A DNA stretch of 64,000 nucleotides from Allomeiothermus silvanus DSM 9946. GTDB taxonomy: Bacteria > Deinococcota > Deinococci > Deinococcales > Thermaceae. The stretch lies in assembly GCF_000092125.1 (NCBI RefSeq), contig NC_014212.1, forward strand, positions 1,136,001-1,200,000. Direction: 5' to 3'. This document shows positions 34,058-55,203 of the stretch, piece by piece. The notes beneath the pieces were generated by a model. The model ran no database searches and was not told the origin of the DNA. It was given only the letters and a program-made list of their open reading frames with translations. Both the position numbers and the translations under genes were made by a program. The stretch's first letter is position 1. Every line of letters starts with the position of its first letter.

Positions 34058-34134
34058 GTAACTTGCCTCCCGGGCGTTCGCTCGCTAAAATACCTAAGCG
34101 TTCGCCTTCGGGCGGGTCAGACTTGCCGAAGTAG
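32995..34134 (+). CDS. IS481-like DDE transposase (copy F)
   Basis: Identical to the other copies through NVLTDY, with HTH and DDE motifs intact. The frame then leaves the element and adds SNLPPGRSLAKIPKRS and a few more residues; its TAG lies inside the first bases of the tRNA-Thr gene. Confidence 0.85.
   Translation: MQFTTVGREIWRGARQAQRLAEANASDPEVQERLRKLRLVKALRESKKSWKEIQDLVGISRATYHRWQKALKEKGLAGLKPRSRRPKHLRTKVHWTPGLLIRIETLRKENPTWGRWSIWLTLRKEGFQMSERTVGRILAYLEKHRRIESVAGYLARTQRGKLKRRVNRPYAKRKPRGYEARAPGDLVQVDTLTLTLGPGSMVKHFSAIDLHSRFVLAEVHSRATAKLSEGFLSLLLARAPFPIRAIQVDGGSEFMAEFEEACCALGIALFVLPPRSPKLNGHVERMQRTFKEEFYTRPLPTPLSELQAELDTYLDYYNRRRPHMALGGLAPLEFLAKMQEESVPQRVSNVLTDYSNLPPGRSLAKIPKRSPSGGSDLPK
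34063..34091 (+). promoter_or_regulatory. tRNA-Thr promoter
   Basis: TTGCCT (34063-34068), a 17-base spacer and TAAAAT (34086-34091). IS copy F ends five bases before the -35 box, leaving the core intact. A CGCC-TTCG-GGCG hairpin follows in the leader. Confidence 0.7.
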
Positions 34135-34199
34135 CTCAGCGGTAGAGCACTCGATTCGTAATCGAGCGGTCGTGGGTTCAAATCCCACCTTCGGCTCCA
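34125..34199 (+). tRNA. tRNA-Thr (anticodon CGT)
   Basis: The acceptor stem GCCGAAG pairs with CTTCGGC, followed by T and an encoded CCA. The anticodon stem CTCGA/TCGAG encloses the loop TTCGTAA with anticodon CGT, reading ACG. The T arm contains GGTTCAAAT. The phage integrase gene lies just downstream, so the 3' half of this gene is the likely attachment site. Confidence 0.95.
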
Positions 34200-34296: not shown

Positions 34297-35460
34297 TTAA
34301 GCGGTGGGTCTGTCTTCCCTGGGGCCAAGCAGCTCGCCAACGGCCAGGGCAGCTTTTTTGCGCTGCGCCCTGAACAGATGTTGGTACGTTTGCTGGGTAA
34401 AAGCTACGCTGGCGTGCCCTACCCGTTCTGAGACTACCTTGGGATCAACCCCGGCCAGGGCCAGCAGAGAGACGTGAGTATCCCGTAAATCATGGAAGCG
34501 AATTTCTTTGACTTTAGCCCGCTTGATGATGGCTAGAAACTCCCGACGCAGGTTGCTCGGCTCGATGGGGGTTCCCACAGAAGTTGTAAACACCCAGCCC
34601 TCGTCAGTCCAGGCGTCCCCTATCCCCAGGCGATCCTTTTCTTGCTGCTCCCGATGTTGCTGCAATACCTCGAGCACATCGCTTGAAACGTCTACTGGAC
34701 GGCTCGAGCGGTAAGTTTTAGGGGATTGAACAACCCGCTTGCTGCCGGCTTTGGTAAGGTTTTGCCGCACCCAGATCGCGCCTTCCTGCCAATCAATGTC
34801 CGCCCACTTCAGCCCTAGCAGTTCGCCTCGGCGCATCCCGGTCATGAGGGCCAAGAAGAAAAGGGCATACAAGCGGGAGTGCTGTGCCTCAGCCAGGAAA
34901 CGCCAGACTTCCTCGGGCGTCCACACCTCGCCGGTGTAGCGTGGCGCCTGAGGGGGCTTGACCCGGTCCGCCGGGTTCCAGGGCAACAATCCCCAACGCA
35001 CGGCGTCCTCGAGCGCGGCGTGCAAGGTCCGGTGCACCAGCCGGACGGTCGTTGGGGAGAGGGTTTTGAGCCGCTTGGGGTCGTTGGGGTGAATGCGCTT
35101 CTTAAGCAGATCAGCGTAAAGGTGAGTCAAGTGCAGCGGCTGTAAGCGCTGCACCGCTATATCCCCCAATATAGGGATTGCGTGTTTCTCAAGGGCGACT
35201 TTGTACCCGTAATGGGTGGTGGGTTTGACTCGGTGTTCTACTGAAGTCAGCCAGCGCTCACAAAACTCTTTGAGGGTGATCCGGTCGGGGTCAGGGAGCA
35301 AATTGCGGCCATAGGCCACCAGCAGCTCAGCCAGCTTCTTGGCGGCTTCTTTGCGGGTCTTGGCGTACCCCCGGTGGCGCTTACCGCTGATCATCAACGA
35401 ATACTCGTAGCGCCCGTCTGCGCGTTTGTAGATGGTGCCTTCATTGTTGGCGCGTTTCAT
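34297..35460 (-). CDS. int: Tyrosine site-specific integrase
   Basis: 387 residues from MKRANNEGTIYKR; a longer start at 35520 adds only a low-complexity proline-rich leader. The N-terminal AP2-like arm-binding domain contains GRYEYSLMISGKRHRGYAKT. The SAM-like core-binding domain is at about 65-165. The catalytic domain shows Arg in TGMRRGELLGLKW, His-x-x-Arg in RFHDLRDTHVSLL, His in VGHASVAFTQQTY and the Tyr of the same segment. It should recombine at the tRNA-Thr site. Confidence 0.95.
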   Translation of the reverse strand: MKRANNEGTIYKRADGRYEYSLMISGKRHRGYAKTRKEAAKKLAELLVAYGRNLLPDPDRITLKEFCERWLTSVEHRVKPTTHYGYKVALEKHAIPILGDIAVQRLQPLHLTHLYADLLKKRIHPNDPKRLKTLSPTTVRLVHRTLHAALEDAVRWGLLPWNPADRVKPPQAPRYTGEVWTPEEVWRFLAEAQHSRLYALFFLALMTGMRRGELLGLKWADIDWQEGAIWVRQNLTKAGSKRVVQSPKTYRSSRPVDVSSDVLEVLQQHREQQEKDRLGIGDAWTDEGWVFTTSVGTPIEPSNLRREFLAIIKRAKVKEIRFHDLRDTHVSLLALAGVDPKVVSERVGHASVAFTQQTYQHLFRAQRKKAALAVGELLGPREDRPTA

Positions 35461-35864
35461 AGGTGGTTGTGTGGCGGGGGATGGGGAGGGGGGAGGGCAT
35501 GGGTCAGTTCGTGGGGTCAAGTACTATCGAATCTTGGTCAAGACCCACACGCGTACTTGTTCCAAGTTTTGCGATCTGTGTACCGATATGTGCTTCCCCA
35601 AAATTCAGCTAGTTCAAGTTGGGCGGTGCGCATAGCCGGGTTATAAGTAGCAATTACGCTGAAAGGGCTGGTTTGACCGTTAAGCACTGGCTGGTAATCT
35701 ATAAGAGCATCTTGAGAAGTAATGAACTCGTCGTTTTTGGTGAAGAAAGAAACTTTAGCAACAACTTTATCCAAGCTTTGGCCTGACACGTTTGTCACCC
35801 TACCCTCGGCCTTTACAAAACTGTCGCCAATCTGACTCCAATGCCAATCCTCAATGTTGACACT

Positions 35865-35885
35865 CCCACGGCTAAAGCACGTGGG
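35865..35885 (-). ncRNA. Right-end hairpin of the TnpB element (putative omega/reRNA 3' part)
   Basis: CCCACG and CGTGGG enclose GCTTTAGC, whose TAG is the tnpB stop. In IS605-type elements the RNA covering this end acts as TnpB guide, with the flanking DNA as guide sequence. This is family knowledge applied to the structure seen here. Confidence 0.5.
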
Positions 35886-37071
35886 ATTCTTGGTTCGACG
35901 AGGACTGCCTACGTTGTGTAGGTCTTACACCCTCTCCCCAAGCGTTTAGCGTCTCCGGGTGCCCCACGGCGACGGGGATAGCTCGTATCCCTTCGGCCCG
36001 GATGTTCAGGGCCGCGTTCAGGTCTCGGTCGTGCACCGCCCCGCACTCACAGGTCCAAACCCTGTCCGAGAGGGTGAGGGCGGTGTGGATTGTCCCGCAC
36101 TCCCGACAAAGCTTGCTGCTGGGGAAGTATCGGTCAATCACGACGAGATGTTTGCGATACCAGACCGCCTTGTACTCCAACTGCCGCCGAAACTCACCCG
36201 GGGCCGCATCTAGAACCGACTTGGACAGCTTGGTTTTCGCCATCCCTTTCAGGTTCAGGTCCTCGATGCACAGCCCGTCGTACTTCTGGACGAGTCCGGT
36301 GGTCAGCTTGTGCAGCCAGTCCTGCCGCTGGTTGCGAACCTTGGCGTGGACCCTGTTCAGCCGATGCCTGGCCTTTTCCCGGTTCTTGCTACCCTTCTGC
36401 TTGCGGGAAAGCTCCCTTTGCGCCCTGCGAAGCTTGCGCTCTGCTTTGCGGTAGAACTTGGGTGGAGCTATTCTTGTACCGTCGGAAAGCACTGCGAAGT
36501 CTTTCAAGCCGAGGTCAATCCCCACCACATGCTCAGGGTTTACGGGGGGCAGGGGTACGTCGGGCATCTCGAACTCGGCGGTCAGGGTGACGTGCCAGTG
36601 CCCTTCGGTGTCGCGTTTGAATGTTGCGCCTTTGATGACGCAATCAATCGGCTGGCTCTGGCGAATCTTCACCCCACCGACCTTGGGGAGGTAAACCTTG
36701 CCTTCCTCCACCCGGACGCGCTGGGGAATGCGGAAGCGGGGCGGGTCCTTCTTTCGGGTCTTGAACCGGGGGAACCCGGCCCGTCGCTCGAAAAACGCCT
36801 TGAACGCCCGGTCGAGGTCTTGGAGGGCTTGTTGCAAGAGTTGGCTATCCGCTTCTCTGAGCCAGGCCATCTCAGGCCGCTTCTTCAGGGCGGTGAGTTC
36901 GGTGGCCTGCCCGTTGTAGGTCAACCCCTTCCCGGTGGCGGCATACGCCTCCTTGCGCCGTGCAAGGCCCCAGTTCCACACGAACCGCCGAGCTCCGGCC
37001 ATACGCAGCAAAGCCTCAGCTTGGGCTTGGGTGGGTTCCATGCGGAAGCGGTAGACCTTGCGGAGCAGCAT
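35872..37071 (-). CDS. tnpB: TnpB RNA-guided nuclease homologue
   Basis: 399 residues. The N-terminal domain starts [21 protein letters not shown]. The RuvC-type acidic residues are present: Asp in [13 protein letters not shown], Glu in [12 protein letters not shown] and Asp in [12 protein letters not shown] zinc ribbon is formed by LCRECG and CECG. All catalytic residues seem intact, so it could be an active guide-RNA nuclease. Its ATG directly follows the tnpA stop. Confidence 0.9.
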
Positions 37072-37470
37072 TCAGTCCCTCGTCTTCTGGGCGGCGATGT
37101 ATTGCTCGATGGTTTTGCTACTGACCATGCCAGCCGTGGAAACGAAATAGCTCCGTGTCCACAGGGCGGGAAGGCGGATGAGTTGGGGAAACTCCCGGCG
37201 CAACACGTGCGAGGTGTAGCCCTTCAGGCGGTGGGCGACCTGGTTAGGGGCCACGTCGGGGTCTACCGAAATGAACAGGTGTACGTGGTCGGGCATGATT
37301 TCCAGGGCGATGATTTCCCAGCCTAGTTTAGCGGTCTTCTCCCTAAGCAGAATATCCAAGCGCTCGGCCAACGGTCCTACCAGAATCTTGCGGCGGCGCT
37401 TGGGCACGAAAACGAAGTGGTAACGCAGCAGCGAGACGGAGGTGTTCTTGTGTTTGTAGGCCGTAGGCAC
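37072..37470 (-). CDS. tnpA: TnpA Y1 (HUH) transposase of IS200/IS605 family
   Basis: 132 residues from a GTG start (PTAYKHKNTSVSLLRYHFVF). The HUH motif is in IMPDHVHLFISV and the catalytic Tyr in SSKTIEQYIAAQ near the C-terminus. Length and motifs match single-strand transposases of this family. It is followed without gap by tnpB. Confidence 0.9.
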   Translation of the reverse strand: MPTAYKHKNTSVSLLRYHFVFVPKRRRKILVGPLAERLDILLREKTAKLGWEIIALEIMPDHVHLFISVDPDVAPNQVAHRLKGYTSHVLRREFPQLIRLPALWTRSYFVSTAGMVSSKTIEQYIAAQKTRD

Positions 37471-37811
37471 TATCACAGTATAGCACACCTGCCGCCCACC
37501 ATGCGATGTGCCCCTGCGGGGCACATGGGGGAGTCCATGTATCCCATCCCTGAAGGGAAGGGTTTTATAGCTCCCCCACACCCCCTCGCTTCTATAAGAT
37601 TGCTCCTAGCACCCAGCCCCAACGTTTCCCCTTGGGTTTACGAAAAGCGAAAACCAACAACCCTATGAAAACGATTGGCCATAAAAGGTATAGCATATCT
37701 CCCTCCAAAGCTTCACCTAATCTATTTTGAATTTACATCAATGTTCGTCCAACTTAGGGTCATTTGCCATTCAGCGTTTCAATCCTCACTCGAGCTTTCG
37801 CCCGAGCGCAA

Positions 37812-38465
37812 CTACATTTTCCGCACCAGGGTAGCTGCCACCCCAAGGACGCGGTCGTTATCGGTAAGAGGAACCGGCGGGTGGTCGGGGTTATCAGAGT
37901 AGAGGTACCAGGAACCGTTGTAGCGCTGTAACCGCTTGACGATGACCCCATCCCAGTGGACATGCACCGCCACGATGCGCCCCGGCTCGACTGCTCCCCC
38001 GGTCCAGAACACCACCACGTCCCCGTCCTTGAGCGTGGGCTGCATGGAATCCCCACCGACCCGCACAGCGAACAGTTCAGACTCCGGCTTGCCTTTGAGG
38101 TCCGGGATGTGGAGAGTGATGTATTCGGCGTTTTCATTCCACATCGGCGGCCCGGCTCCGGCATCTACGACGGGGATACGATACCGCGTCACCGGAATGG
38201 TAGCAGTGATTTCCGACCCGGGGAGCTGGATGCCTGTCTCCTGGGAAAACTCCTCGGGAGTCCATTGGAGAACATCCAAAATGCGCTCGAGGGTTGTGGG
38301 CTCCTTATATGCTAAATAACGAACCATTGTGTCTACACTAGGGAGAAAACGCGCTCCTGCCCACCCCGGGCTTTTACCTACTCGCTTAGAAAATTCAGCT
38401 TGACTAATATCTAGTTGTTTCAAACGAGCCTTGATCGCTTCTGCGGCTTCTATTATTGCCACCAT
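37812..38465 (-). CDS. CI/LexA-type phage repressor
   Basis: 217 residues starting MVAIIEAAEAIKARLKQL behind GGAGGGGG. The N-terminal helix-turn-helix (DISQAEFSKRVGKSPGW) binds the operators just upstream. The C-terminal S24 peptidase domain has the catalytic Ser in GGDSMQPTLKDGDVVV and Lys in GVIVKRLQRY, so RecA-stimulated self-cleavage is likely. It is divergent from the Cro-like gene, forming the lysogeny switch. Confidence 0.9.
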   Translation of the reverse strand: MVAIIEAAEAIKARLKQLDISQAEFSKRVGKSPGWAGARFLPSVDTMVRYLAYKEPTTLERILDVLQWTPEEFSQETGIQLPGSEITATIPVTRYRIPVVDAGAGPPMWNENAEYITLHIPDLKGKPESELFAVRVGGDSMQPTLKDGDVVVFWTGGAVEPGRIVAVHVHWDGVIVKRLQRYNGSWYLYSDNPDHPPVPLTDNDRVLGVAATLVRKM

Positions 38466-38479
38466 ACCCCCTCCAGTCA

Positions 38480-38526
38480 AATACCTTTGGTATTAGGGTA
38501 GCAAATAAATAACTACTAGTGGTATT
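38480..38526. promoter_or_regulatory. Operators of the CI/Cro switch
   Basis: O1 is a perfect 6-3-6 dyad AATACC-TTT-GGTATT (38480-38494), placed over the minus-strand TAATAC box that should be the -10 of the repressor. O2 is the related ACTACT-AGT-GGTATT (38512-38526), overlapping the -35 of the rightward promoter. A third similar dyad TACTAC-CT-GTAGTA lies near 38742 inside the Cro-like gene. Confidence 0.7.
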
Positions 38527-38553
38527 GACGCAGCGATTCGTATCGACTACAAT
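38525..38553 (+). promoter_or_regulatory. Rightward early promoter of the prophage
   Basis: TTGACG (38525-38530), 17-base spacer, TACAAT (38548-38553); the ATG of the Cro-like gene is eight bases later, so the message should be leaderless. The -35 box overlaps O2. Confidence 0.85.
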
Positions 38554-38561
38554 GTGTAGCG

Positions 38562-38783
38562 ATGATAGGTGAACGCCTAAAAGCTCTTCGAGAGGCACGG
38601 CAGATGTCACAGTACGATCTGGCCCGTGCTGCGCATGTCAGCCAAGGGCTAATCTGGCAAATTGAGGCCAACCGTAAAAATCCTGGCTTGAAAACGCTAT
38701 TGCGGCTAGCAAACGCCCTATCTGTATCTCCTGACCAACTACTACCTGTAGTATCTCATGTAGGACAGGAGGCCCCCCGATGA
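38562..38783 (+). CDS. Cro-like HTH regulator
   Basis: A 73-residue XRE-family protein: MIGERLKALREARQMSQYDL, then the recognition helix region HVSQGLIWQIEANRKNPGLK. It is small enough to be a Cro repressor acting at O1/O2. First gene of the early operon; its stop overlaps the next start by four bases. Confidence 0.85.
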   Translation: MIGERLKALREARQMSQYDLARAAHVSQGLIWQIEANRKNPGLKTLLRLANALSVSPDQLLPVVSHVGQEAPR

Positions 38784-42289: not shown

Positions 42290-42624
42290 TGCCTGGGGCC
42301 ATGGATACCCACAGCTTCCGCCGTCGTCTGGCTGAGGCCATGAGCGAGGCGGAAATCCAGCAAGGGATTGTGAGGTACCTACGGGCTACGGGCTGGGTAG
42401 TACTGGAGATCAAAGGCAACGCCAAGCGGGGTGGGACGGTATTTCAGACTAAGGGGATCCCTGACCTCTATGCCGCACGAAAGGGACGCAGCTTGTGGCT
42501 CGAGGTCAAACGGCCCGGCCAGAGGCCGCGCCCCGAGCAAGAAGCGCTCCATGAACGTTTGCGCCAGGAAGGGTGCGAGGTGCACGTCATAGACGGGATC
42601 GAAGCGCTGGAGAAGCTGTTATGA
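42289..42624 (+). CDS. VRR-NUC family nuclease
   Basis: 111 residues, ATG overlapping the helicase TGA by one base. The PD-(D/E)xK core reads GIPDLYAARKGRSLWLEVKRPGQRPRPEQ, the VRR-NUC hallmark. Phage members cut branched DNA such as Holliday junctions. The first basic helix and SEAEIQQGIVRYLRATGW match the family start. Confidence 0.9.
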   Translation: MPGAMDTHSFRRRLAEAMSEAEIQQGIVRYLRATGWVVLEIKGNAKRGGTVFQTKGIPDLYAARKGRSLWLEVKRPGQRPRPEQEALHERLRQEGCEVHVIDGIEALEKLL

Positions 42625-45314
42625 CCGGAATTTTAACTCCTCCTACCACCTACGCCTTTTTCCAACACCTCAGGCTTCCGGAGGAGCGCGGGTTTTTGGA
42701 GTTTCGCGCTTTGCCTTCTAAAAAGCAGAGTTGGCAAGAGTGGCCCCCGCCCGAGAATTTTGATGGGCTTTATGAGTTTCCTCGCGAAGAGATCTACTTC
42801 GGAGTTCTCTTGCGCGATACCCGCAAGGGCAACGCCGCCCACGTACGGCGAGGCAGTGTTGCCTGGCTCGAGCTGGATTTAGCAGGGAGCCTTTACCTTC
42901 CCGATTGGGACAAGAAGAGCGTGAAACAGGCACCCCCCGAGATCCTTCGCCGGAGCGCGGAGCAGCTTTGGGCGGACCTGGAACTCGAAGCTCGAGAGCT
43001 GGGACTACCCCCGCTGGCCGCCGTGTATAGCGGGCAGGGGCTACATGTGTACTGGGGGCTGGACACTCCCCAGGAGGGGAAGTGGTTGGAGGGGCTCAAC
43101 AAAAGCTTGATCAAGCTGTTTCGCTCCTATAACCCCGAGGAGTCCGCCTTCGACCGCGCCAGAATCCTGCGGGTTCCCGGTACGTGCCACAGTAAAAACC
43201 CTCAGCGCCCACTGCCGGTCGAGCTACTGTACCTAGGCGACGAGCGCCTCCCGCGAGAACGGCTAGAGGCGATTCTGCAGGTCGAGGATCCTCCAGCACT
43301 CCCCCCGTCGCTGGAACGGGCCATGCGAGCCGGGCTCTCCCCCTGGGAGCCCTCCGAGCACGATTTACGACTACTGGTGGAGCACTGGCATGTCGGTGAG
43401 CGTAACCAAAAGGCCATGGCCTTTGGTGGATGGTGCGCCTCCCACGGGGTGCCGGAGAAGGTGGCGCTGGATTTGGTAGAGCGGATTTGCCGCGAGGCAG
43501 GGGATGAGGAGCCCGCCAACCGCCGCAGCGCGGTGGCCAACAGCTACCGCCGATATCAGCAGGGGCTGTCGATTCTGGGGTTTTCCAGTTTGCGTAAGCT
43601 GGTGCCTGGCCTGGAGGGGAAAGGCCGAGTGAGCCTGGGAATGCTTTCCGCCTCCGAAAGCGAGGCCCTGGAAGGCGCCGTCCCTGGCGAGAGCCTATCC
43701 CTCCCTCCCGAGTACCGCCTGGACGAGGCGGGGCGGCTGGTAAAGGTCGAAGTACGCAGCACCCGTTGGGGGATCGTGGAGGACATAGAGCTACTGGCCC
43801 CCCGCCCCATTGGGGTGCGCGAGGTGTACACCGACCTGGCCACCGGCGAAAAGCATTTGCGGCTGTTCTGGCCCGACCTGGATGGCACGGTGGTAGAGCG
43901 GCTGGTACCGATGGGGGAGGCCATGACCCGGCAAGGGCTGTTACGTTTGGCCGCCCAGGGGTTGCCGGTGGACGAACCCAATGCTGCCCAGCTATCGCGC
44001 TTTTTACAGATGTACCTCTCCCACAACCGCTGGGCACTACCGCACCGGCGAGTCACCTCGCACCTGGGCTGGCAGGGAAAAACGTTCATTTTACCCGGCG
44101 GCGATGTAGAGGTGCTGGAGGTAGATTCCGAGCCTTGGCGCCCAAGGGGCAATCTAGAAGGGTGGCTGGAGGGCCTGAGAGCCCTTCTAAGCTGGGGGGT
44201 GACCCCGGCCCTTATCGCAGCAGCCCTCAGTGCGACGGCGCCCCTGGTGCGAGGCGCGCGGCTGGTCAAGAACCCCATCCTGGCGCTATCCACCACCAGC
44301 CATTCGGGGAAGACCACGGCGGTGTACTTCGCACTGAGCATCTGGGGGAGCCCAGAGTACAACGAAACGCTCTACCTCGAAGACGCCACGGTGAACGGAT
44401 TGATGGGTCGAATGATGGCCCGCCAGGATCTGCCGCTAGGTTTAGACGACTTACAACGCTATGACGACCGCAAAGTAGGGGAACTGGTGCACTTGCTTTC
44501 TGGAGGCGCCGAAAAAGCCCGGCTTAAGCGCGATGGCAGCGAGCGCCCGGCCCGGCGATGGCGAGGGGTGGCCTTGCTCACTGGAGAGGTGAGCGCATTG
44601 CGGGAGACATTGGGTTCAGGGGCGGTGAACCGGATGGTGGAGCTCGATGACTACCCTCTGGGGGTGGGCAAAGGACCGGAGGGGGCCGAACGTTCCCGAA
44701 TCCTGCGCGAAGCGGCTCAGCATTGGGGGCAGGCACGCACCCCGCTGGTCGAGTTGTACGCCGACCTCAACGTGCGGGAGGTAATCGATGCCTTAGGCCG
44801 ATTGGCCTTGGAGGCCGGCGCCCCGGCAGATATGACCGACCTGTGCGGGTTGGTGGGGCTAGGGGTACAAATCCTTCAAGTACTTGGAGGGTGGGAGGGG
44901 GAGAGCCAGGATGAAGCGGCCGTGACCTACTTAGCCCGCAACCTGGTGGAGCTGCGCGAGCGGCACGGCAGCCTGGCAGGGCGGGCGATGGAGGCGCTGC
45001 GCGACTTCCTGCGCAGTTATGCCGGAGCGGGCGATCAGCCGACCGATGAGATCCGGGTACGGGAGGAGCTACAGGCGTTTTACAAGGGGGGGAGCTGGTT
45101 CATCAACCCTAACGGGCAGGAGGTGGAGCGGGTCATGCGGCGGTATGGAGGGTTGGAAGTGCATCTGCCGGAGTGGGCTCGAGCTGGGTGGATTGAGGTG
45201 GAGCAGGTAGAGGGGAAACGGCGCTATAAACCGTTGGTTCGGTACAAGGGAGAGCGATATCGTTGGGTGGCCGTTCCTTTACTTGATCACGCGGAGGATG
45301 CTGATGATTGCTAA
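42621..45314 (+). CDS. Phage primase-helicase (PrimPol-like N-terminus, DUF927-type ATPase)
   Basis: 897 residues, ATG overlapping the previous TGA by four bases. The first 230 residues resemble a RepB/PrimPol-type primase: acidic WLELDLAGS, AVYSGQGLHVYWGLD and FDRARILRVPGTCHSKN. The C-terminal half has HLGWQGKTFILPGGD and Walker A TTSHSGKTTAVYFALS, then LGLDDLQRYDDRKVGELVHLLSGG, as in DUF927 helicases. It probably starts replication at the repeat-rich region directly downstream. Confidence 0.8.
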   Translation: MTGILTPPTTYAFFQHLRLPEERGFLEFRALPSKKQSWQEWPPPENFDGLYEFPREEIYFGVLLRDTRKGNAAHVRRGSVAWLELDLAGSLYLPDWDKKSVKQAPPEILRRSAEQLWADLELEARELGLPPLAAVYSGQGLHVYWGLDTPQEGKWLEGLNKSLIKLFRSYNPEESAFDRARILRVPGTCHSKNPQRPLPVELLYLGDERLPRERLEAILQVEDPPALPPSLERAMRAGLSPWEPSEHDLRLLVEHWHVGERNQKAMAFGGWCASHGVPEKVALDLVERICREAGDEEPANRRSAVANSYRRYQQGLSILGFSSLRKLVPGLEGKGRVSLGMLSASESEALEGAVPGESLSLPPEYRLDEAGRLVKVEVRSTRWGIVEDIELLAPRPIGVREVYTDLATGEKHLRLFWPDLDGTVVERLVPMGEAMTRQGLLRLAAQGLPVDEPNAAQLSRFLQMYLSHNRWALPHRRVTSHLGWQGKTFILPGGDVEVLEVDSEPWRPRGNLEGWLEGLRALLSWGVTPALIAAALSATAPLVRGARLVKNPILALSTTSHSGKTTAVYFALSIWGSPEYNETLYLEDATVNGLMGRMMARQDLPLGLDDLQRYDDRKVGELVHLLSGGAEKARLKRDGSERPARRWRGVALLTGEVSALRETLGSGAVNRMVELDDYPLGVGKGPEGAERSRILREAAQHWGQARTPLVELYADLNVREVIDALGRLALEAGAPADMTDLCGLVGLGVQILQVLGGWEGESQDEAAVTYLARNLVELRERHGSLAGRAMEALRDFLRSYAGAGDQPTDEIRVREELQAFYKGGSWFINPNGQEVERVMRRYGGLEVHLPEWARAGWIEVEQVEGKRRYKPLVRYKGERYRWVAVPLLDHAEDADDC

Positions 45315-45640
45315 AACGTCACCACGTGGTGACGTTGTGGTGACGCTAGTGGTGACGGTTGTTTTTTTGTGTAGGACGAATAAAACACAATGTGTCACCA
45401 CCGTCACCACTCTTTATTTCATTTCTATACGCGCGCGTTTTTTTGTACCAGGGGGACCCCCCTACTTAATTAAGTACTTAAGTACCCGGTTAGTAGGGGG
45501 GGCAAAAATTTTTGCCAAATTTTCTTCTATAAACTGCTTGTTTTAGTGGTGACAGTGGTGACGTTGGGGGATTTCCCCGTACAGAACGATAAAAAAGCGT
45601 CACCACTAGCGTCACCACAGTGGCACCACCGCAGTGACGG
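45315..45640. other. Candidate phage replication origin (iterons, palindromes, AT-rich core)
   Basis: A gene-free stretch of 334 bases. The 8-mer GTGGTGAC or its complement GTCACCAC occurs ten times, in clusters at 45317-45357, 45394-45410, 45546-45563 and 45598-45618. The first pair forms a perfect 22-bp palindrome at 45315-45336. The centre is AT-rich with palindromes TACTTAATTAAGTA and GGCAAAAATTTTTGCC, and CCCCCCTACT/AGTAGGGGGG can pair across 25 bases. The position beside the primase-helicase supports an origin. Confidence 0.7.
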
Positions 45641-45648
45641 GGGGATGT

Positions 45649-46485
45649 ATGACTGAACCCACCCTCCTCCTCCGCATTGCCCGGTTCTGGGGTGTCTCCC
45701 TTGCTGACCTATGCCGCCAGTTGCAACCAGAACCGCCGTTGCGCCGGATGGTTGGAACGCTATGCCAGGACTGTTTGAACGGTTTGGAAAGCCACGGCCT
45801 CCGCCCTCCGATACATTTGCTCAAAGAACTGCGGACCAATCCCCAGAAAAAGCGCTACGCGCTCTTGCTTGGCTGGTTAGAGCAGTATCGGCGTTGGTGT
45901 GAGCTGAGTAAGACTCCCTGGACAGAACGCGGGGCCGTCCATCAAGAAAACCAGGCAGCCCGGGAAGACCTGGGCTGGCAGATTTACCTGGTGGAGTCGC
46001 TAATTCAGGAAACTCCCTACCCAAACACTGTCTCTAACTGGATAGAAACGCTCATCGGCCTAGAAAAGGAGGAACCTATGCCCATTCAAGGAAAAGTCGC
46101 AAACACCAGCTCGCGCCTGCACGACCTGGCTGAGATCGAGCAGGCCATTCACGAACTGCCCGGCCAGGTAGAACCTTGGGACGCTGACCACAAAATGCTC
46201 TACACGTTGTTGCTGGACATCCGCTGCGCCCTGCAGACCTACGGTCCCCGGCACGATCCCACCAGCCTTGAGCAAGATCCCGTCGAAGCGCTCCCTGATT
46301 ATCTGGAGATGTACCGGGAGTATTTGAGTAACTTGAAAGATTCAGACGGAGCTCGAACTGACGACGAGATGCGATATGGGGCTCGGCTGGCCTGGCGAAT
46401 CTGGCAGATGCTCGAGCGCCAAGGGGCTACCTACGAAGATTTAGCAAAGCGAGTGGCACTATTATCTGACCCTTCCGCGGCCTAG
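45649..46485 (+). CDS. Hypothetical phage protein with internal start
   Basis: 278 residues from MTEPTLLLRIARFWGVSLADL. A paired CQDC lies near residue 42. No known family is recognised. Inside the frame AAAAGGAGGAACCT precedes ATG 46078, an excellent ribosome site, so a second product of 135 residues (MPIQGKVANTSSRLHDLAEI onward) may be made. The two halves read like separate helical domains. It follows the origin and may take part in replication control. Confidence 0.6.
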   Translation: MTEPTLLLRIARFWGVSLADLCRQLQPEPPLRRMVGTLCQDCLNGLESHGLRPPIHLLKELRTNPQKKRYALLLGWLEQYRRWCELSKTPWTERGAVHQENQAAREDLGWQIYLVESLIQETPYPNTVSNWIETLIGLEKEEPMPIQGKVANTSSRLHDLAEIEQAIHELPGQVEPWDADHKMLYTLLLDIRCALQTYGPRHDPTSLEQDPVEALPDYLEMYREYLSNLKDSDGARTDDEMRYGARLAWRIWQMLERQGATYEDLAKRVALLSDPSAA

Positions 46486-46659: not shown

Positions 46660-47058
46660 GTGTTGCTCATCCCTGGTAGACCCCAATCCAAGCTCGGCAC
46701 CCCCGAGTTCGAGCGCTGGCGTATGCACGCCAGCCGGGCTGTGCTCGACCAAATCGACAACCCGCCTCTAATCCCGTCAAGTTTTCTCGAGCTGGCCCTC
46801 GACTTCTACTACCCCTTTGAGCAGCCCAGCTACACTGCTGACGACCTGGCCGAGCACCGCATCCCCCGCATCACCGCGGCAGCTGAGCCGGTGCTGATCG
46901 CCCTGGTCGGGCTATTGTTCCAGCGTCGAGGGCAGATCAGTAGCCTGAGCGTCACGCGGATTGTGCGTCCTGCTAGCGCCCTCGAGGCGGAGTGGGGCGA
47001 GGCTTGGCGTAGGGGTGGGGTGCGGGTGCGGTATTGCGCGGAGGATGAGGGGCCGTGA
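46660..47058 (+). CDS. RusA-like protein (degenerate Holliday-junction resolvase?)
   Basis: About 132 residues from GTG 46660 (MLLIPGRPQSKLGTPEFERW). A better-spaced ribosome site GGAGGA at 46636 points to ATC 46648 as a rare start. IPGRPQSK and the VLIALVGLLFQRRGQISSLSVTR segment resemble RusA, but the aspartates of its catalytic DxDN and DD motifs are not seen, so nuclease activity is doubtful. The gene opens the late operon and overlaps terS by four bases. Confidence 0.45.
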   Translation: MLLIPGRPQSKLGTPEFERWRMHASRAVLDQIDNPPLIPSSFLELALDFYYPFEQPSYTADDLAEHRIPRITAAAEPVLIALVGLLFQRRGQISSLSVTRIVRPASALEAEWGEAWRRGGVRVRYCAEDEGP

Positions 47059-47510
47059 GCAAGGAACCGCACCGTCCGACTCTTAAAAACCCACGGAGCC
47101 GACGCGGGGTGCCTCCTAGCGAGGAACAATGGGAAGTTTTCCTGGAGGAGCTGCGCCAGCACGCCACTGTCAAACGGGCAGCCAAAGCGGCTAAGATCCA
47201 CCACTCCACGGTGTACGAACGTCTGGCTAAAGATGAGGTTTTCCGCCGTGTGGTTGAAGAGGCCCTCGAGGTCGGCGCGGTTGCGCTCGAGCAAGAGGCC
47301 ATCCGCCGCGCGGTCGAGGGAGTCAAGGAGCCCGTTTTTTATCAAGGGCAAAAGGTTGACACGGTAACCCGCTACTCCGATACTTTATTGATTTTCCTGC
47401 TCAAGGGGCTCAAACCCGAGCGTTACAAAGATCGGCACGAGCACACCGGCCCCGGTGGCGGCCCGATTCAGGTGATCAGCATCGAGGTGGTGCCCCCCGA
47501 TGACGCTTGA
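47055..47510 (+). CDS. terS: Terminase small subunit
   Basis: 151 residues, GTG start overlapping the previous TGA. An N-terminal HTH (HATVKRAAKAAKIHHSTVYERLAKD) for recognising the packaging site is followed by helices (RRVVEEALEVGAVALEQEAIRRAVEG) and the terminal segment LLIFLLKGLKPERYKDR, all typical of small terminases. It overlaps the large subunit gene by eleven bases. Confidence 0.85.
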   Translation: MSKEPHRPTLKNPRSRRGVPPSEEQWEVFLEELRQHATVKRAAKAAKIHHSTVYERLAKDEVFRRVVEEALEVGAVALEQEAIRRAVEGVKEPVFYQGQKVDTVTRYSDTLLIFLLKGLKPERYKDRHEHTGPGGGPIQVISIEVVPPDDA

Positions 47511-48804
47511 TCGCGATTTGACCACTGTGACCCCGCAGGGCAAGCTGCGCTTCAACCTGCACCGCGGCCAGTGGAAAGCTTGGCAAAGCTCAAAGCGCTT
47601 TGTGCTGGTGCTAGCGGGTACCCAAGGCGGCAAAACCAGTTTTGGCCCGCTTTGGTTGTACCGCGAGATCCAGCGCAAGGGGCCGGGGGATTATATCGTG
47701 GCGACTCCGACTTTTCCCCTACTCGAGCTAAAGCTGCTGCCGGAGTTTCGCAAGCTTTTCGAGCAGCACCTATTGCTAGGTCGCTACGTCGGATCACCCA
47801 GCAAAAAATTTGTCTTCAGCCCGGAGGGCTTCGAGCGCACGTTTGGGCGTAGGCCAGGGCCGGACGACGCGCCGGTGCAGGTGTTTTTTGGCCATGCCCA
47901 GGACCCTGACTCGCTCGAGTCTGCCACCGCCAAAGCCGCGTGGCTCGACGAGGCGGGGCAAAAAAAGTTTCGGCGCGACTCCTGGCAGGCCATTCTGCGC
48001 CGCCTTTCCATTCACCAAGGCCGGGTGCTCATCACCACCACGCCCTACTATTTGGGCTGGCTTAAGGCCGATTTACACGACCCCGCCCGGCAAGGCCACC
48101 CTGACATCGAGCTGGTCAATTTCAAATCGGTGGACAATCCCAATTTTCCTCGAGCCGAGTACGAGCGCGCTCGGGCTACCTTGCCGCGCTGGAAGTTCGA
48201 TATGTTCTATAACGGGCTCTTCACCCGGCCAGCAGGCCAGATCTATGACTGCTTCGACCCCGAGGTGCACGTTCGGCCAGCCTTCAATGTCCCCGAGGAC
48301 TGGCCGCGCTTCATAGGCCTGGACTTTGGCGGGGTTAACACCGCGGCGGTCAAGCTCGCCAAAAACCCGGCGTCCGAAGAATATTTTGTTTATGCCGAGT
48401 ACAAAGCCGGCGGGCGTACAGCCCGGGAGCACGCTGAGGTTTTGCTGAAGGGCGAGCCCCGGGCGCCCCACGCGGTGGGCGGGGCCAAGTCGGAGGGGAA
48501 CTGGAGGCTCGAGTTTGCCGCGGCGGGCCTGGGTGTGGCCGCCCCGCCGGTGGCGGATGTCGAGGTGGGTATTAACCGGGTATACGGGCTGCTCAAGAGT
48601 GGGCGGTTGTACGTCATGGATAGCTGCCCCGACCTCATCGACGAGATCATCAGCTACAGCCGGGTACTCGACGAGAACGACGAGCCTACCGAGCAAATCG
48701 AGGACAAAGAGACCTATCACCGCGCCGATGCCCTGCGCTACATCGCCACTTATCTCGCGCGCGGCATCAATGACTGGCAAGTGAAAGGAGAGCACGCCGG
48801 ATGA
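47500..48804 (+). CDS. terL: Terminase large subunit
   Basis: 434 residues. The packaging ATPase has Walker A AGTQGGKTSFGPL, Walker B AAWLDEAGQ and coupling motif TTTPYYLGW. The C-terminal RNase H-fold nuclease shows its acidic residues in IGLDFGGVNTAAV and YHRADALRYIATYL. It cuts and pumps phage DNA through the portal. The start overlaps terS and its stop overlaps the portal ATG. Confidence 0.95.
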   Translation: MTLDRDLTTVTPQGKLRFNLHRGQWKAWQSSKRFVLVLAGTQGGKTSFGPLWLYREIQRKGPGDYIVATPTFPLLELKLLPEFRKLFEQHLLLGRYVGSPSKKFVFSPEGFERTFGRRPGPDDAPVQVFFGHAQDPDSLESATAKAAWLDEAGQKKFRRDSWQAILRRLSIHQGRVLITTTPYYLGWLKADLHDPARQGHPDIELVNFKSVDNPNFPRAEYERARATLPRWKFDMFYNGLFTRPAGQIYDCFDPEVHVRPAFNVPEDWPRFIGLDFGGVNTAAVKLAKNPASEEYFVYAEYKAGGRTAREHAEVLLKGEPRAPHAVGGAKSEGNWRLEFAAAGLGVAAPPVADVEVGINRVYGLLKSGRLYVMDSCPDLIDEIISYSRVLDENDEPTEQIEDKETYHRADALRYIATYLARGINDWQVKGEHAG

Positions 48805-51081: not shown

Positions 51082-51651
51082 GTTCCAGTAGGCTCCCCCT
51101 GGCGAAGCTTTCTGCGTCTGCCCCGCAAAAAACTCCTCGAGATCGACCAAGAGGTCTTCGAAGTAGTAGAGGAAGCCGCTGCTATCGCTTCGAAGGTTCA
51201 TGGCTTGCAGGGGCTACCTCGAGTACCGGTAGTGCAACGGTTGCTGGATCGTGATGAACTTGCCCGTTACGTCCCGGACCCGGAGACTGGAGATCCGGCA
51301 TACATCGGAGTTCAGAAGGGCAAGACCACCTTGCTGGCAGTCCTGGAAGAGTTTGGCCACATGATCGATCATCAAGCATTTTTTCGGGGCCAGTACGCCA
51401 GCCGCGCTGCGCAACAAGGCCAAGGGCCGCTGGTTAGGTGGTGGGAAATTGTCTGGGAAACTCAAGCGGTTAGAGAGTTGCGCTCGTTAAGGCGCGCGTT
51501 TTACACCTTCGACATTGAAGGGCGGAAAAAGGTAGATCGGGGGTTTGTAGCCTACTTGCTTCAGCCCGACGAAATTTTTGCCCGTAGCTATCGCCAATTC
51601 ATCGCGGTCTATTCCGGTGATCCGCGTTTGTTGAAGGCCATTGGTTCACCA

Positions 51652-52896
51652 AAACCACCCCCGGAAGCCCCTGTCTTTAGACATGGGGAGGAAGGGGGTG
51701 GCGAGCGAAGCTCGCTGAATGGTCAAAAGCGTGATAAACTGAGTCAAGGTATGTCCCTCCTGTCCGTGCGTTGCAAACTGATACCCGACGCGAGTACGGC
51801 CGAGAAGCTGACCCGCACGGTGAACCAGTTCGCGAATGCCTGTAACTACACCCTCCAAGTCGCAAGGCGGGACAACCTGTGGAACAAGTTCGCCCTGCAA
51901 CGTGCGGTCTACCGGGAGCTTCGGGAGCGGTTCGGCCTCAGCGCCAACCTCGCGGTGCGGGCCATCGCTCGGGTGGGCAAGCGCAAAGGCCACAAAGTGG
52001 GCGGCTTCAAGGCTACCAGCGTGGACTACGACCAGCGCATCCTCTCGGTCAACCTGGACACCGAAGTGGTCAGCCTCTCCACCGTGGACGGGCGGGTGAA
52101 AGTCCCCATGCAGATTGCGGGGTATCAGCGCCACCTTTTGCGAACCGCCAAAAGCATCCAGGGCGGTCAACTGGTCAGGGGGCGGGACTCCTGGTACGTC
52201 CACCTGTGGTGCGAGTACGACGACCCGCCCGCCATGACCCCAAACGGCTTTCTCGGGGTTGACCTCGGCATCGTGAACATCGCCACCGATTCGGACGGAG
52301 AGACCTACTCCGGCTCCCACCTCAACTCGGTTCGCCACCGCCACCGGAGGCTCAGGAGGAAGTTGCAGAAGAAAGGCACCAAGGGGGCCAAGCGCCGCCT
52401 GAAGAAGCTCTCGGGCAAGGAGGCCCGCTTTTCCAACCATACAAACCACGCGCTCAGCAAGCGCATTGTCGCCAAGGCCCAACGCACCGGGAGGGGTATC
52501 GCCATCGAGGATTTGGGTGGCATCCGCGACCGGGTACGGCTCAGACGGCCTCAACGGGCGGCCTTGCATAGCTGGGCGTTCTTCGACCTGGGCCAGAAGC
52601 TTCGGTACAAGGCTGAACGGGCGGGAGTCGTTCTGGTCCAGGTTGACCCCCGCAACACTTCCCGCACCTGCCCGGCCTGCGGGCACTGCGAGAAGCTCAA
52701 CCGCGTTTCGCAGGCACAGTTCGTCTGTCGGTCGTGCGGCCTCGTTGGGCACGCAGACCACTTCGCAGCCGTGAACATTGCCGTTCGCGGCTGGGCCGCT
52801 GTAAACCGGCCATACCTGGGGGAAGCGGAGAGTGCTATCCGGCATAATCCTGTCCCTGGAAGCCCCCGGCTTTAGCCGTGGGGTGGTTTACGGCAA
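51652..52896 (+). mobile_element. TnpB-only (IS1341-type) IS200/IS605-like element
   Basis: About 1245 bp with ends set by restoring the interrupted frame (AIGSP then NKPGFEIG); they are uncertain by a few bases. The left flank ends TTCACC. Similar hairpins occur near both ends: CCCCTGTCTTTAGACATGGGG at 51668 and CCCCCGGCTTTAGCCGTGGGG at 52863, the latter containing the tnpB stop. There is no tnpA, so it needs transposase in trans. Confidence 0.7.
51751..52875 (+). CDS. tnpB: TnpB RNA-guided nuclease homologue (second lineage)
   Basis: 374 residues starting MSLLSVRCKLIPDASTAEKL. RuvC residues: Asp in FLGVDLGIVNIATDS, Glu in GIAIEDLGGIRDRV and Asp in LVGHADHFAAVNIAV. The zinc ribbon is CPACGHCEK...CRSCG. 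The sequence differs strongly from the TnpB at 35872. The frame is open from the interrupted phage gene, but ATG 51751 is the natural start. The TAG lies in the right-end hairpin, as in the other tnpB. Confidence 0.9.
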   Translation: MSLLSVRCKLIPDASTAEKLTRTVNQFANACNYTLQVARRDNLWNKFALQRAVYRELRERFGLSANLAVRAIARVGKRKGHKVGGFKATSVDYDQRILSVNLDTEVVSLSTVDGRVKVPMQIAGYQRHLLRTAKSIQGGQLVRGRDSWYVHLWCEYDDPPAMTPNGFLGVDLGIVNIATDSDGETYSGSHLNSVRHRHRRLRRKLQKKGTKGAKRRLKKLSGKEARFSNHTNHALSKRIVAKAQRTGRGIAIEDLGGIRDRVRLRRPQRAALHSWAFFDLGQKLRYKAERAGVVLVQVDPRNTSRTCPACGHCEKLNRVSQAQFVCRSCGLVGHADHFAAVNIAVRGWAAVNRPYLGEAESAIRHNPVPGSPRL

Positions 52897-53859: not shown

Positions 53860-55018
53860 CAGGCTTTTATCACAACCCTCGGATTAGCCTCAGCAGAACT
53901 TTGGGATCAGCCGAGAACTTTCTAACCGAGCGCAACACCGGCCACCTTTTGAGATGCAGGAGGTTCAGGATCACATCCCGTAGGTACATCAGCCCCGCCG
54001 CCCCCTTGCGGCTGCGGGAGGCATCTTCTCCCAACACCGTGTCTCGTTTATGGTGTAAGCGATTCTCTACCTCCCAGTGTCCCCGCCACAGGGCATACAG
54101 CCGCTTGGCCGGGGCCTGTAGGCTGGTCAGGGCATAGGCGGTCTCCTCCCGTAGCTCCCCGCTATTCTTGCGCACCACCCGCCGTCGCATCCGCAAGGCC
54201 ATCCGCGAGCCCCGCCAGCCGCTCACCCCCTCCGGCAGGGGGAGCCCTTCCAGGTGCCATATCCAGACCTCTCCACCCCGAACCTGGTGCTGGATGTAGT
54301 GGTCGGTCGCCTGGTAGTTGGCAAAGGCCCACTGGATCAGTTCCTTGAGCTCTGCCTGGTTCCCTTTGACGCTGAACAGATACCCCCCTTTTGCTCCACC
54401 ACCACTGCCGCCAACTCCTGGGTGCACAAGGCCGCATCCCCCGTCAGTACCCAGTCCACCCCCAGCCCCTCCATGTGTACCACCAGTCCCTGCGCCGCCG
54501 CTGCCTCACCGTCGGCAATCGCCTGGCTCCCCAAGGAGAGCCCCAGCCCCTGAACCAACGCCGACAAAAAGACCAGCGCCTCTTCCCCTCGCCAAGCACA
54601 CCGGGTGCCCCGGAGGTGTTTACCGTCCACGGCTACGGGCAAGGGTTCATCGCCCTCCTTGCCCAGGGCCTTGAGTACCTCCCGAGCCCAGGATAGTAAG
54701 GCCTTTTGCAAGGGTTGTAGGTCCTTGCTCAAGGACCAAAAGAGGCGGTAGAGGGTGGCTTGCCCGGGTAGTTTGCGCTCACCCCGGCGGGTACGGATAT
54801 GGACCTCGTCCAGCAAGAAGCGTCGCTGGTCTTGCACCCACTGGCTGACGGCCAGGATATTGTGCCGTCCCGAGCCCACCGCCATCAAGCAGATCAGCAG
54901 CAGGTCTTGCCAGCGATGCTGGGTCTTCAGGTACTCGCGGGGATCGGGTATCTGGGCTAGGTATGGCAACGGAGAGGGAATGGAAGCAGTTTTCATATGG
55001 CTTTATGATAAAAGCCTG
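53860..55018 (-). mobile_element. ISAs1-family insertion sequence (1159 bp)
   Basis: Inverted ends CAGGCTTTTATCA and TGATAAAAGCCTG, with a 9-bp target repeat ACGACGCCC at 53851-53859 and 55019-55027. The long target repeat and transposase fit ISAs1. Confidence 0.9.
53870..54996 (-). pseudogene. ISAs1-family transposase with a frameshift at A4G6
   Basis: The N-terminal part starts MKTASIPSPLPYLAQIPDPR and includes HRWQDLLLICLMAVGSG, VAVDGKHLRGT and LTGDAALCTQELAAVVVEQKGG. The rest (YLFSVKGNQAELKELIQWAF ... LRDVILNLLHLKRW) is in the -1 frame. The change occurs at AAAAGGGGGG; one step back there would give the family sequence EQKGGYLFSVKGNQ. It may be a mutation or a programmed slip. Confidence 0.8.
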
Positions 55019-55203
55019 ACGACGCCCGCACGCACGCGGTGGACCCGGACCTGCTGAGGCAAGCCCTGGCTGATCTCGAGGCCGGGCGCTTCGAGGTATC
55101 CGCCGCCGCAACCCTATCCCGCGAGGAGGTGGCACGCCGCGCTCGAGCCCACCTGGAACGGCACACGGCCCTAGGCATCGGTATGCGTACTACGGAGGAA
55201 AAC

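Follow-up and report, generated by a model that had tools for sequence, protein, structure and literature searches.

SaPI origins carry element-specific iterons on either side of an AT-rich region. According to Ubeda 2007, as far as it is quoted in PMC7581432, the C-terminal domain of SaPI Rep binds iterons situated directly downstream of its own gene. Cch2, too, binds immediately downstream repeats via its C-terminal domain in vitro (PMC7581432). In the pRN1 plasmid, a sequence required for replication lies downstream of the replication operon (PMC4234260), a position comparable to that of the island described here. At the oriT of pCW3, the winged-helix protein TcpK (5vfy) uses its β-wing to bind 9-nt tandem repeats whose boxes are three nucleotides apart (PMC6137059).

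The locus considered here belongs to a lambda-like prophage within a 64-kb stretch of DNA that was analysed as a whole (the window). Its genes follow the order integrase, repressor, Cro-like gene, RecD-like helicase, VRR nuclease and PrimPol-DUF927 primase-helicase; then comes a repeat-rich island (45315-45640) and, 3' of it, two small genes, terminase and other phage genes (Table 1). The prophage very probably uses this island as its replication origin. A preliminary description had proposed a two-sided iteron origin, and this is the best-supported reading, given that the layout recurs behind DUF927 genes of unrelated phages and plasmids and that the repeat words co-vary with the winged helix of the helicase.

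Repeat array, core and adjacent helicase

The word GTGGTGAC/GTCACCAC occurs in ten exact copies within the island, which fall into four clusters, and a degenerate eleventh copy (GTGGCACCAC) follows at the right end. The preliminary description had counted ten copies in four clusters and a perfect 22-bp palindrome formed by the first two; all ten exact matches and the palindrome were located. Of the positions it listed, 45326, 45337 and 45349 are correct, whereas 45598 and 45610 are each one base off (45599 and 45611). Its 'outward clusters' are too simple a picture, as the actual order is -+++ / -- / AT-rich core / ++ / --. In the left outer cluster, the copies are spaced by 8 bp (the abutting palindrome), 11 bp and 12 bp, in the right outer cluster by 12 bp and in both inner pairs by 9 bp. 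Ten copies are far more than chance would produce: for the whole 64-kb window, the expectation for GTGGTGAC is 1.65 (maximum 5 in 100 shuffles), and first-order Markov versions of the island (n = 5000) contain no 8-mer in more than 4 copies. No other stretch of equal length in the window reaches 5 copies of any 8-mer. Moreover, paired copies of GTGGTGAC occur nowhere else in the 3.72-Mb genome, in which the array is unique.

Table 1. Coordinates of features in the window (positions of the 64-kb stretch)
Feature	Position	Strand	Remarks
Integrase	34297-35520	-	Beside tRNA-Thr (34125-34199)
S24/LexA-like repressor	37812-38480	-	
PrimPol-DUF927 primase-helicase, predicted initiator and self-loading helicase	42621-45314	+	ATG at 42621; 897 aa
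C-terminal winged-helix domain, predicted iteron reader	44985-45311	+	AF2, TcpK fold match, co-variation
Wing P872-L873-V874-R875	45231-45242	+	Numbering from codon 42618
Divergent cassette	45229-45648		About 420 bp; last ~27 helicase codons and whole island
Perfect 22-bp palindrome	45315-45336		Built from first two abutting repeats
Exact repeat copies	45318(-), 45326(+), 45337(+), 45349(+), 45394(-), 45403(-), 45546(+), 45555(+), 45599(-), 45611(-)		
Left outer cluster	45318-45356		Repeats 45318(-), 45326(+), 45337(+), 45349(+)
Left inner pair	45394-45410	-	9-bp spacing; 45 bp from outer cluster
AT-rich core, predicted unwinding element	45411-45545		GC 0.39; two palindromes, inverted repeat
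Right inner pair	45546-45562	+	9-bp spacing
Right outer cluster	45599-45629	-	45599(-), 45611(-), degenerate copy at about 45620-45629; 44 bp from inner pair
Downstream gene	45649-46485	+	278 aa

The iterons flank an AT-rich region on both sides, the GC content being 0.39 in the core and 0.47 in the island, as against 0.62 in the window. The core palindromes and the long inverted repeat noticed earlier are all present, namely, TACTTAATTAAGTA at 45463-45476, GGCAAAAATTTTTGCC at 45501-45516 and CCCCCCTACT/AGTAGGGGGG at 45457-45466 and 45492-45501. The first repeat starts 3 bp past the stop codon of the helicase; this ORF, as had been stated, ends just before the island, at 45314. The view that the island contains no gene also stands: the sole ORF spanning it (87 aa, TTG start) is shifted in frame by indels in the sister prophage described below, and thus no gene is supported there. 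Rfam gave no match for the island at the gathering threshold, and GC skew was uninformative.

The primase-helicase matches Pfam DUF927 (E=5e-25) and a PHROG primase/helicase family (1e-46), with additional N-terminal matches to DNA primase/polymerase. In the PDB, phmmer retrieves 5dgk ('Active helicase', 6e-5) and 8tch ('Pathogenicity island protein', 2.6e-4), which are helicases of the kind found as Cch in SCCmec and as Rep in SaPIs. The NCBIfam model SCCmet_Cch1 matches at 9.7e-7 with a score far below the model cut-off; thus, the protein is a distant homologue of Cch and not Cch itself. In an AF2 model of the last 109 residues (pLDDT 70), a helix-turn-helix is followed by a beta wing, in which the wing triplet and R875 are located. 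The nearest PDB fold of this domain is TcpK 5vfy, and the match, though marginal (E=0.035, TM 0.48), suggests a plausible DNA-binding mode. Modelling the helicase and the C-terminal domain together gave a pLDDT of 44, too poor for use. A protein scan of the genome contigs with the window's helicase as query returned no relatives, and the only close relative of this exact helicase that was found belongs to the sister prophage.

A sister prophage with a different repeat word

The sister is a collinear prophage located beside the same tRNA gene in another genome of the genus (G001, IMG/VR L001); a DNA scan of viral contigs with the core pattern retrieved it together with two others. Its helicase is 97% identical to that of the window. 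All ten repeat positions and orientations are kept in its array, and the word is GTGGCCCC (nine copies exact, one degenerate), in which CCC replaces TGA inside the 8-mer. The exact 8-mer of the window is missing from the sister because every copy changed together while the array stayed. Hence, the refutation once suggested for the origin, namely, absence of the repeats from prophages with the same primase, would mislead.

The divergence between the two prophages is sharply bounded. Identity is 100% over 45150-45229, ranges from 40 to 95% per 20-bp bin over 45230-45648 and recovers at the start codon (ATG) of the gene at 45649, the flanks being mostly 90-100% identical; the divergent block therefore comprises the last 27 helicase codons and the island. 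The wing sequence in this block is KPLVRYKGER in the window and KVKTRYKGEQ in the sister, and the core palindromes GGGGGGCAAAAATTTTTGCC and ATTAAGTACTTAAGTAC are conserved. Such a pattern would be expected if a specificity cassette had been exchanged. An origin whose iterons are read by a protein other than the helicase, such as the product of the gene at 45649, with the helicase being recruited, would suit that gene, which lies directly next to the island and is also present, well conserved, in the sister prophage. However, its product has no family match and, at 90% identity, lies outside the swapped cassette, and the residue-base rule described below points at the helicase C-terminus, which makes reading by another protein highly improbable.

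The two prophages differ in other modules as well. The immunity region (37812-38783) encodes a repressor that is 55% identical between them and a Cro-like protein whose gene has no homologue in the sister, which is consistent with different immunity of the two prophages. Iterons often serve as operators too, and operators of a phage repressor or activator governing the downstream genes could account for a word that differs along with these regulators and for an array preceding the gene start at 45649. On the other hand, a search for a sigma-70-like promoter found none, the repressor/cro intergenic region holds no copy of the word, and the array is conserved at DUF927 gene ends; the operator reading is thus very unlikely compared with that of an origin. 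For the TerS and TerL genes (47055-48804), no homologue was detected at the corresponding position of the otherwise collinear sister, indicating replacement of the module.

Several further differences set the window's prophage apart. A TnpA/TnpB-like pair (IS200/IS605 type, 35872-37581) adjoins the integrase and is missing from the sister, which also lacks the stretch with a TnpB-like ORF (51205-52875) that seems to be joined in frame to the beginning of another ORF. An insertion (53860-55020), with a transposase in two frames on the minus strand, splits the phage gene at 53265, whose copy in the sister is intact, and the prophage of the window may be unable to form particles. In the sister genome, a 45-bp perfect repeat of the tRNA-Thr 3' end (34155-34199) is found about 37 kb away (L014, G001:C1 about 184160-184204) and is likely the attachment repeat that fixes the right end of the sister prophage.

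Origin layout and wing residue among DUF927 loci

DUF927 loci of unrelated phages and plasmids show the layout again, with different words. Directly 3' of the gene, most of them have 6-15 copies of one 8-mer. The common layout starts with an outer cluster whose copies are 11-12 bp apart; after 42-50 bp comes an inner pair (7-9 bp), then a core of mostly 80-120 bp, followed on the far side by an opposite inner pair, 44-56 bp and outer copies. It is carried by the 7.4-kb Deinococcus plasmid pDATS04, which has three annotated genes, by plasmid pFP4 of Streptomyces, by a Geobacillus plasmid, by the phages THSA-485A and FP_Epona (Faecalibacterium) and by most related viral contigs. The shared geometry covers Deinococcota, Bacillota, Actinomycetota and Pseudomonadota. 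The window departs from it in its right half (-- and a degenerate copy, where -, + is usual) and in its longer core (143 bp versus mostly 80-120). A scan for Geobacillus DUF927 gave no matches.

A second set of loci was made up of 66 taken from bacterial genomes and a few from viral contigs. Here, an array, defined as at least 5 copies within 400 bp of a gene end, was present at 45 of 60 new DUF927 gene ends, whereas the 396 other gene ends of these loci had none. At the remaining 15 ends, some arrays lie further downstream and some were not found. In L055-L058, the array is located 1.5-2.3 kb further downstream.

This distribution bears on two further readings of the island. One is a packaging site (cos/pac) recognised by TerS; the terminase genes are located about 1.4 kb 3' of the island, and the change of terminase in the sister coincides with the change of word. 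Nevertheless, a packaging site is extremely unlikely: the layout also occurs 3' of DUF927 genes in plasmids, including the three-gene plasmid without an annotated terminase; the words track the helicase wing across many elements; and the repeat positions are kept despite unrelated terminases. Centromere-like sites can also bear iteron-like arrays, and a partition or incompatibility site might be imagined in place of an origin. However, no partition genes were recognised next to the array in this prophage, and the array is tied to the end of an initiator-helicase gene; the probability of such a site is very small.

A second Thermaceae DUF927 family carries a near-perfect ten-copy dyad (pair, 42-46 bp, cluster, then the mirror image) embedded in the 3'-terminal part of the helicase reading frame, so that iterons encode the tail of the protein. 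Such arrays are found in L072, L073, L076, L078, L079 (402-616) and L080, with words that differ by element (AGTGGGAACA, ACCGGTAAC, CCGGGAAC). L079 is from the same genome as the window but lies outside it (C1, about 1575469-1575683); this arrangement of inside-out half-sites occurs once in the genome. A shorter array with 9-bp-spaced pairs lies 3' of other Thermaceae DUF927 genes (L074, L082 and L083), the word being TCCCAACA in L074 and L082.

The pairs L044/L065, L043/L048 and L050/L051 have near-identical helicase cores and differ in both wing and word; L056 and L057 have identical wings and identical words. Most words fit a frame of AGGTGTAACA-like positions 1-10, in which the word of the window reads nGTGGTGACG. 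In the training loci, the residue aligned with R875 is R or K with C, W with G and F with A at word position 9 (34/35 as aligned); the exception is L011, whose Trp lies one column off in a gapped stretch. This rule was fixed in writing before new loci were fetched, and the frame of the new words was set without positions 9-10. Among 34 new islands taken as confident at a threshold picked with the data in view, W was paired with G in 23/23 and R/K with C in 9/9, so the rule held in all 32 cases that it covers; the others were a Y with G, which is outside the rule, and an unreadable base. Below the threshold, the rule fits several further W/G loci but not L157, which has W with an apparent A and whose frame is uncertain.

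As the loci are related, the phylogenetic independence of the rule is limited: the training tree contains 4 independent residue-base switches (one being the hand-placed Trp of L011) and the combined best tree 6, all of them concordant, with only 2 of the 6 on well-supported branches. In a scan of 4770 column combinations, R875/position 9 ranks fourth, and the top three rest on 2-3 deviating sequences each. A partial Mantel test gave 0.14 (p=0.036), the wing being only slightly better than the core as a predictor of word distance; since this result is weak, the argument rests on the close pairs and on the residue-base rule. Contact of R or K with the guanine opposite C would account for the rule. 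Given the rule and the wing swap, it is most likely the helicase itself that reads the repeats, and it would load as two opposed rings.

Proposed mechanism and relation to known systems

In the proposed mechanism, the array, its position, the conserved layout and the co-variation of its letters with the wing are taken from the DNA, and binding, ring loading, melting and priming from homologues. The PrimPol-DUF927 protein would bind the 8-bp iterons via its C-terminal winged helix, chiefly the beta-wing. The origin would comprise two near-mirror half-sites, each with an outer cluster (11-12 bp period) and an inner pair (9-bp spacing) 44-45 bp off, on which two helicase rings could assemble in opposed orientation, open up the intervening AT-rich core with its palindromes and then move away from each other. 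The fused PrimPol would prime the exposed strands for the host polymerase, and new words may arise when a short cassette comprising the wing tail and the array is swapped. Taken as a whole, from iteron binding by the winged helix to the cassette swap, this model is considered highly likely. Two other candidates were dropped: an NrS-1-like PrimPol priming site for the 8-mer, as the words co-vary with the winged helix, and a classical iteron plasmid (RepA/RepE/Pi), as the initiator is a PrimPol-DUF927 fusion, not of the Rep_3 type, and the array is two-sided with both orientations.

A broader proposal, which seems reasonably probable, combines an origin grammar shared by at least four phyla (opposed half-sites with an outer cluster ~45 bp from a pair spaced by 7-9 bp), a simple wing code that pairs R/K with C, W with G and F with A at position 9 and helps to set the word, the cassette swap and the inside-out Thermaceae version. 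The analysis locates the putative origin of a thermophilic prophage and provides a sequence rule for finding origins in a large group of mobile elements, most of which lack an annotated one. With the residue-base rule, initiator specificity, which is usually hard to predict, becomes testable by single substitutions, and the sister prophage offers a ready-made natural experiment. It is also suggested how replicons with the same helicase might escape mutual interference.

Among described systems, the SaPIbov1-type Rep shares the DUF927 helicase and an iteron origin directly 3' of its gene; in the present case, a Thermaceae prophage encodes a single protein in which PrimPol and helicase are fused. 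The comparison with SaPI was made through the literature. SCCmec Cch (DUF927; 5dgk) and Cch2 (D5_N type) likewise have putative origins directly 3' of the helicase gene; however, the Cch2 site consists of three 5-nt iterons, as against ten 8-mers in four clusters. The lambda ori has iterons beside an AT-rich region and element-specific words that are swapped along with the domain that reads them, as appears to be the case here, whereas lambda O is a loader-recruiting initiator without helicase activity, and its iterons lie inside the O gene. TcpK, linked to the locus by a weak fold match only, is a conjugation accessory protein and not a helicase. ORF904 of pRN1 resembles the window's protein in being a PrimPol-helicase, but its helicase belongs to a family other than DUF927 and its replicon is a crenarchaeal plasmid. 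In the literature searched, which lay outside the primary SaPI origin papers, the cross-phylum geometry, the residue-base rule and the swap of wing plus array appear to be new. The arrangement itself, which had been called an unfamiliar type, is rather of a known kind, the SaPI/SCC order of a Rep helicase gene followed by iterons, found here with a fused PrimPol-helicase in a Thermaceae prophage.
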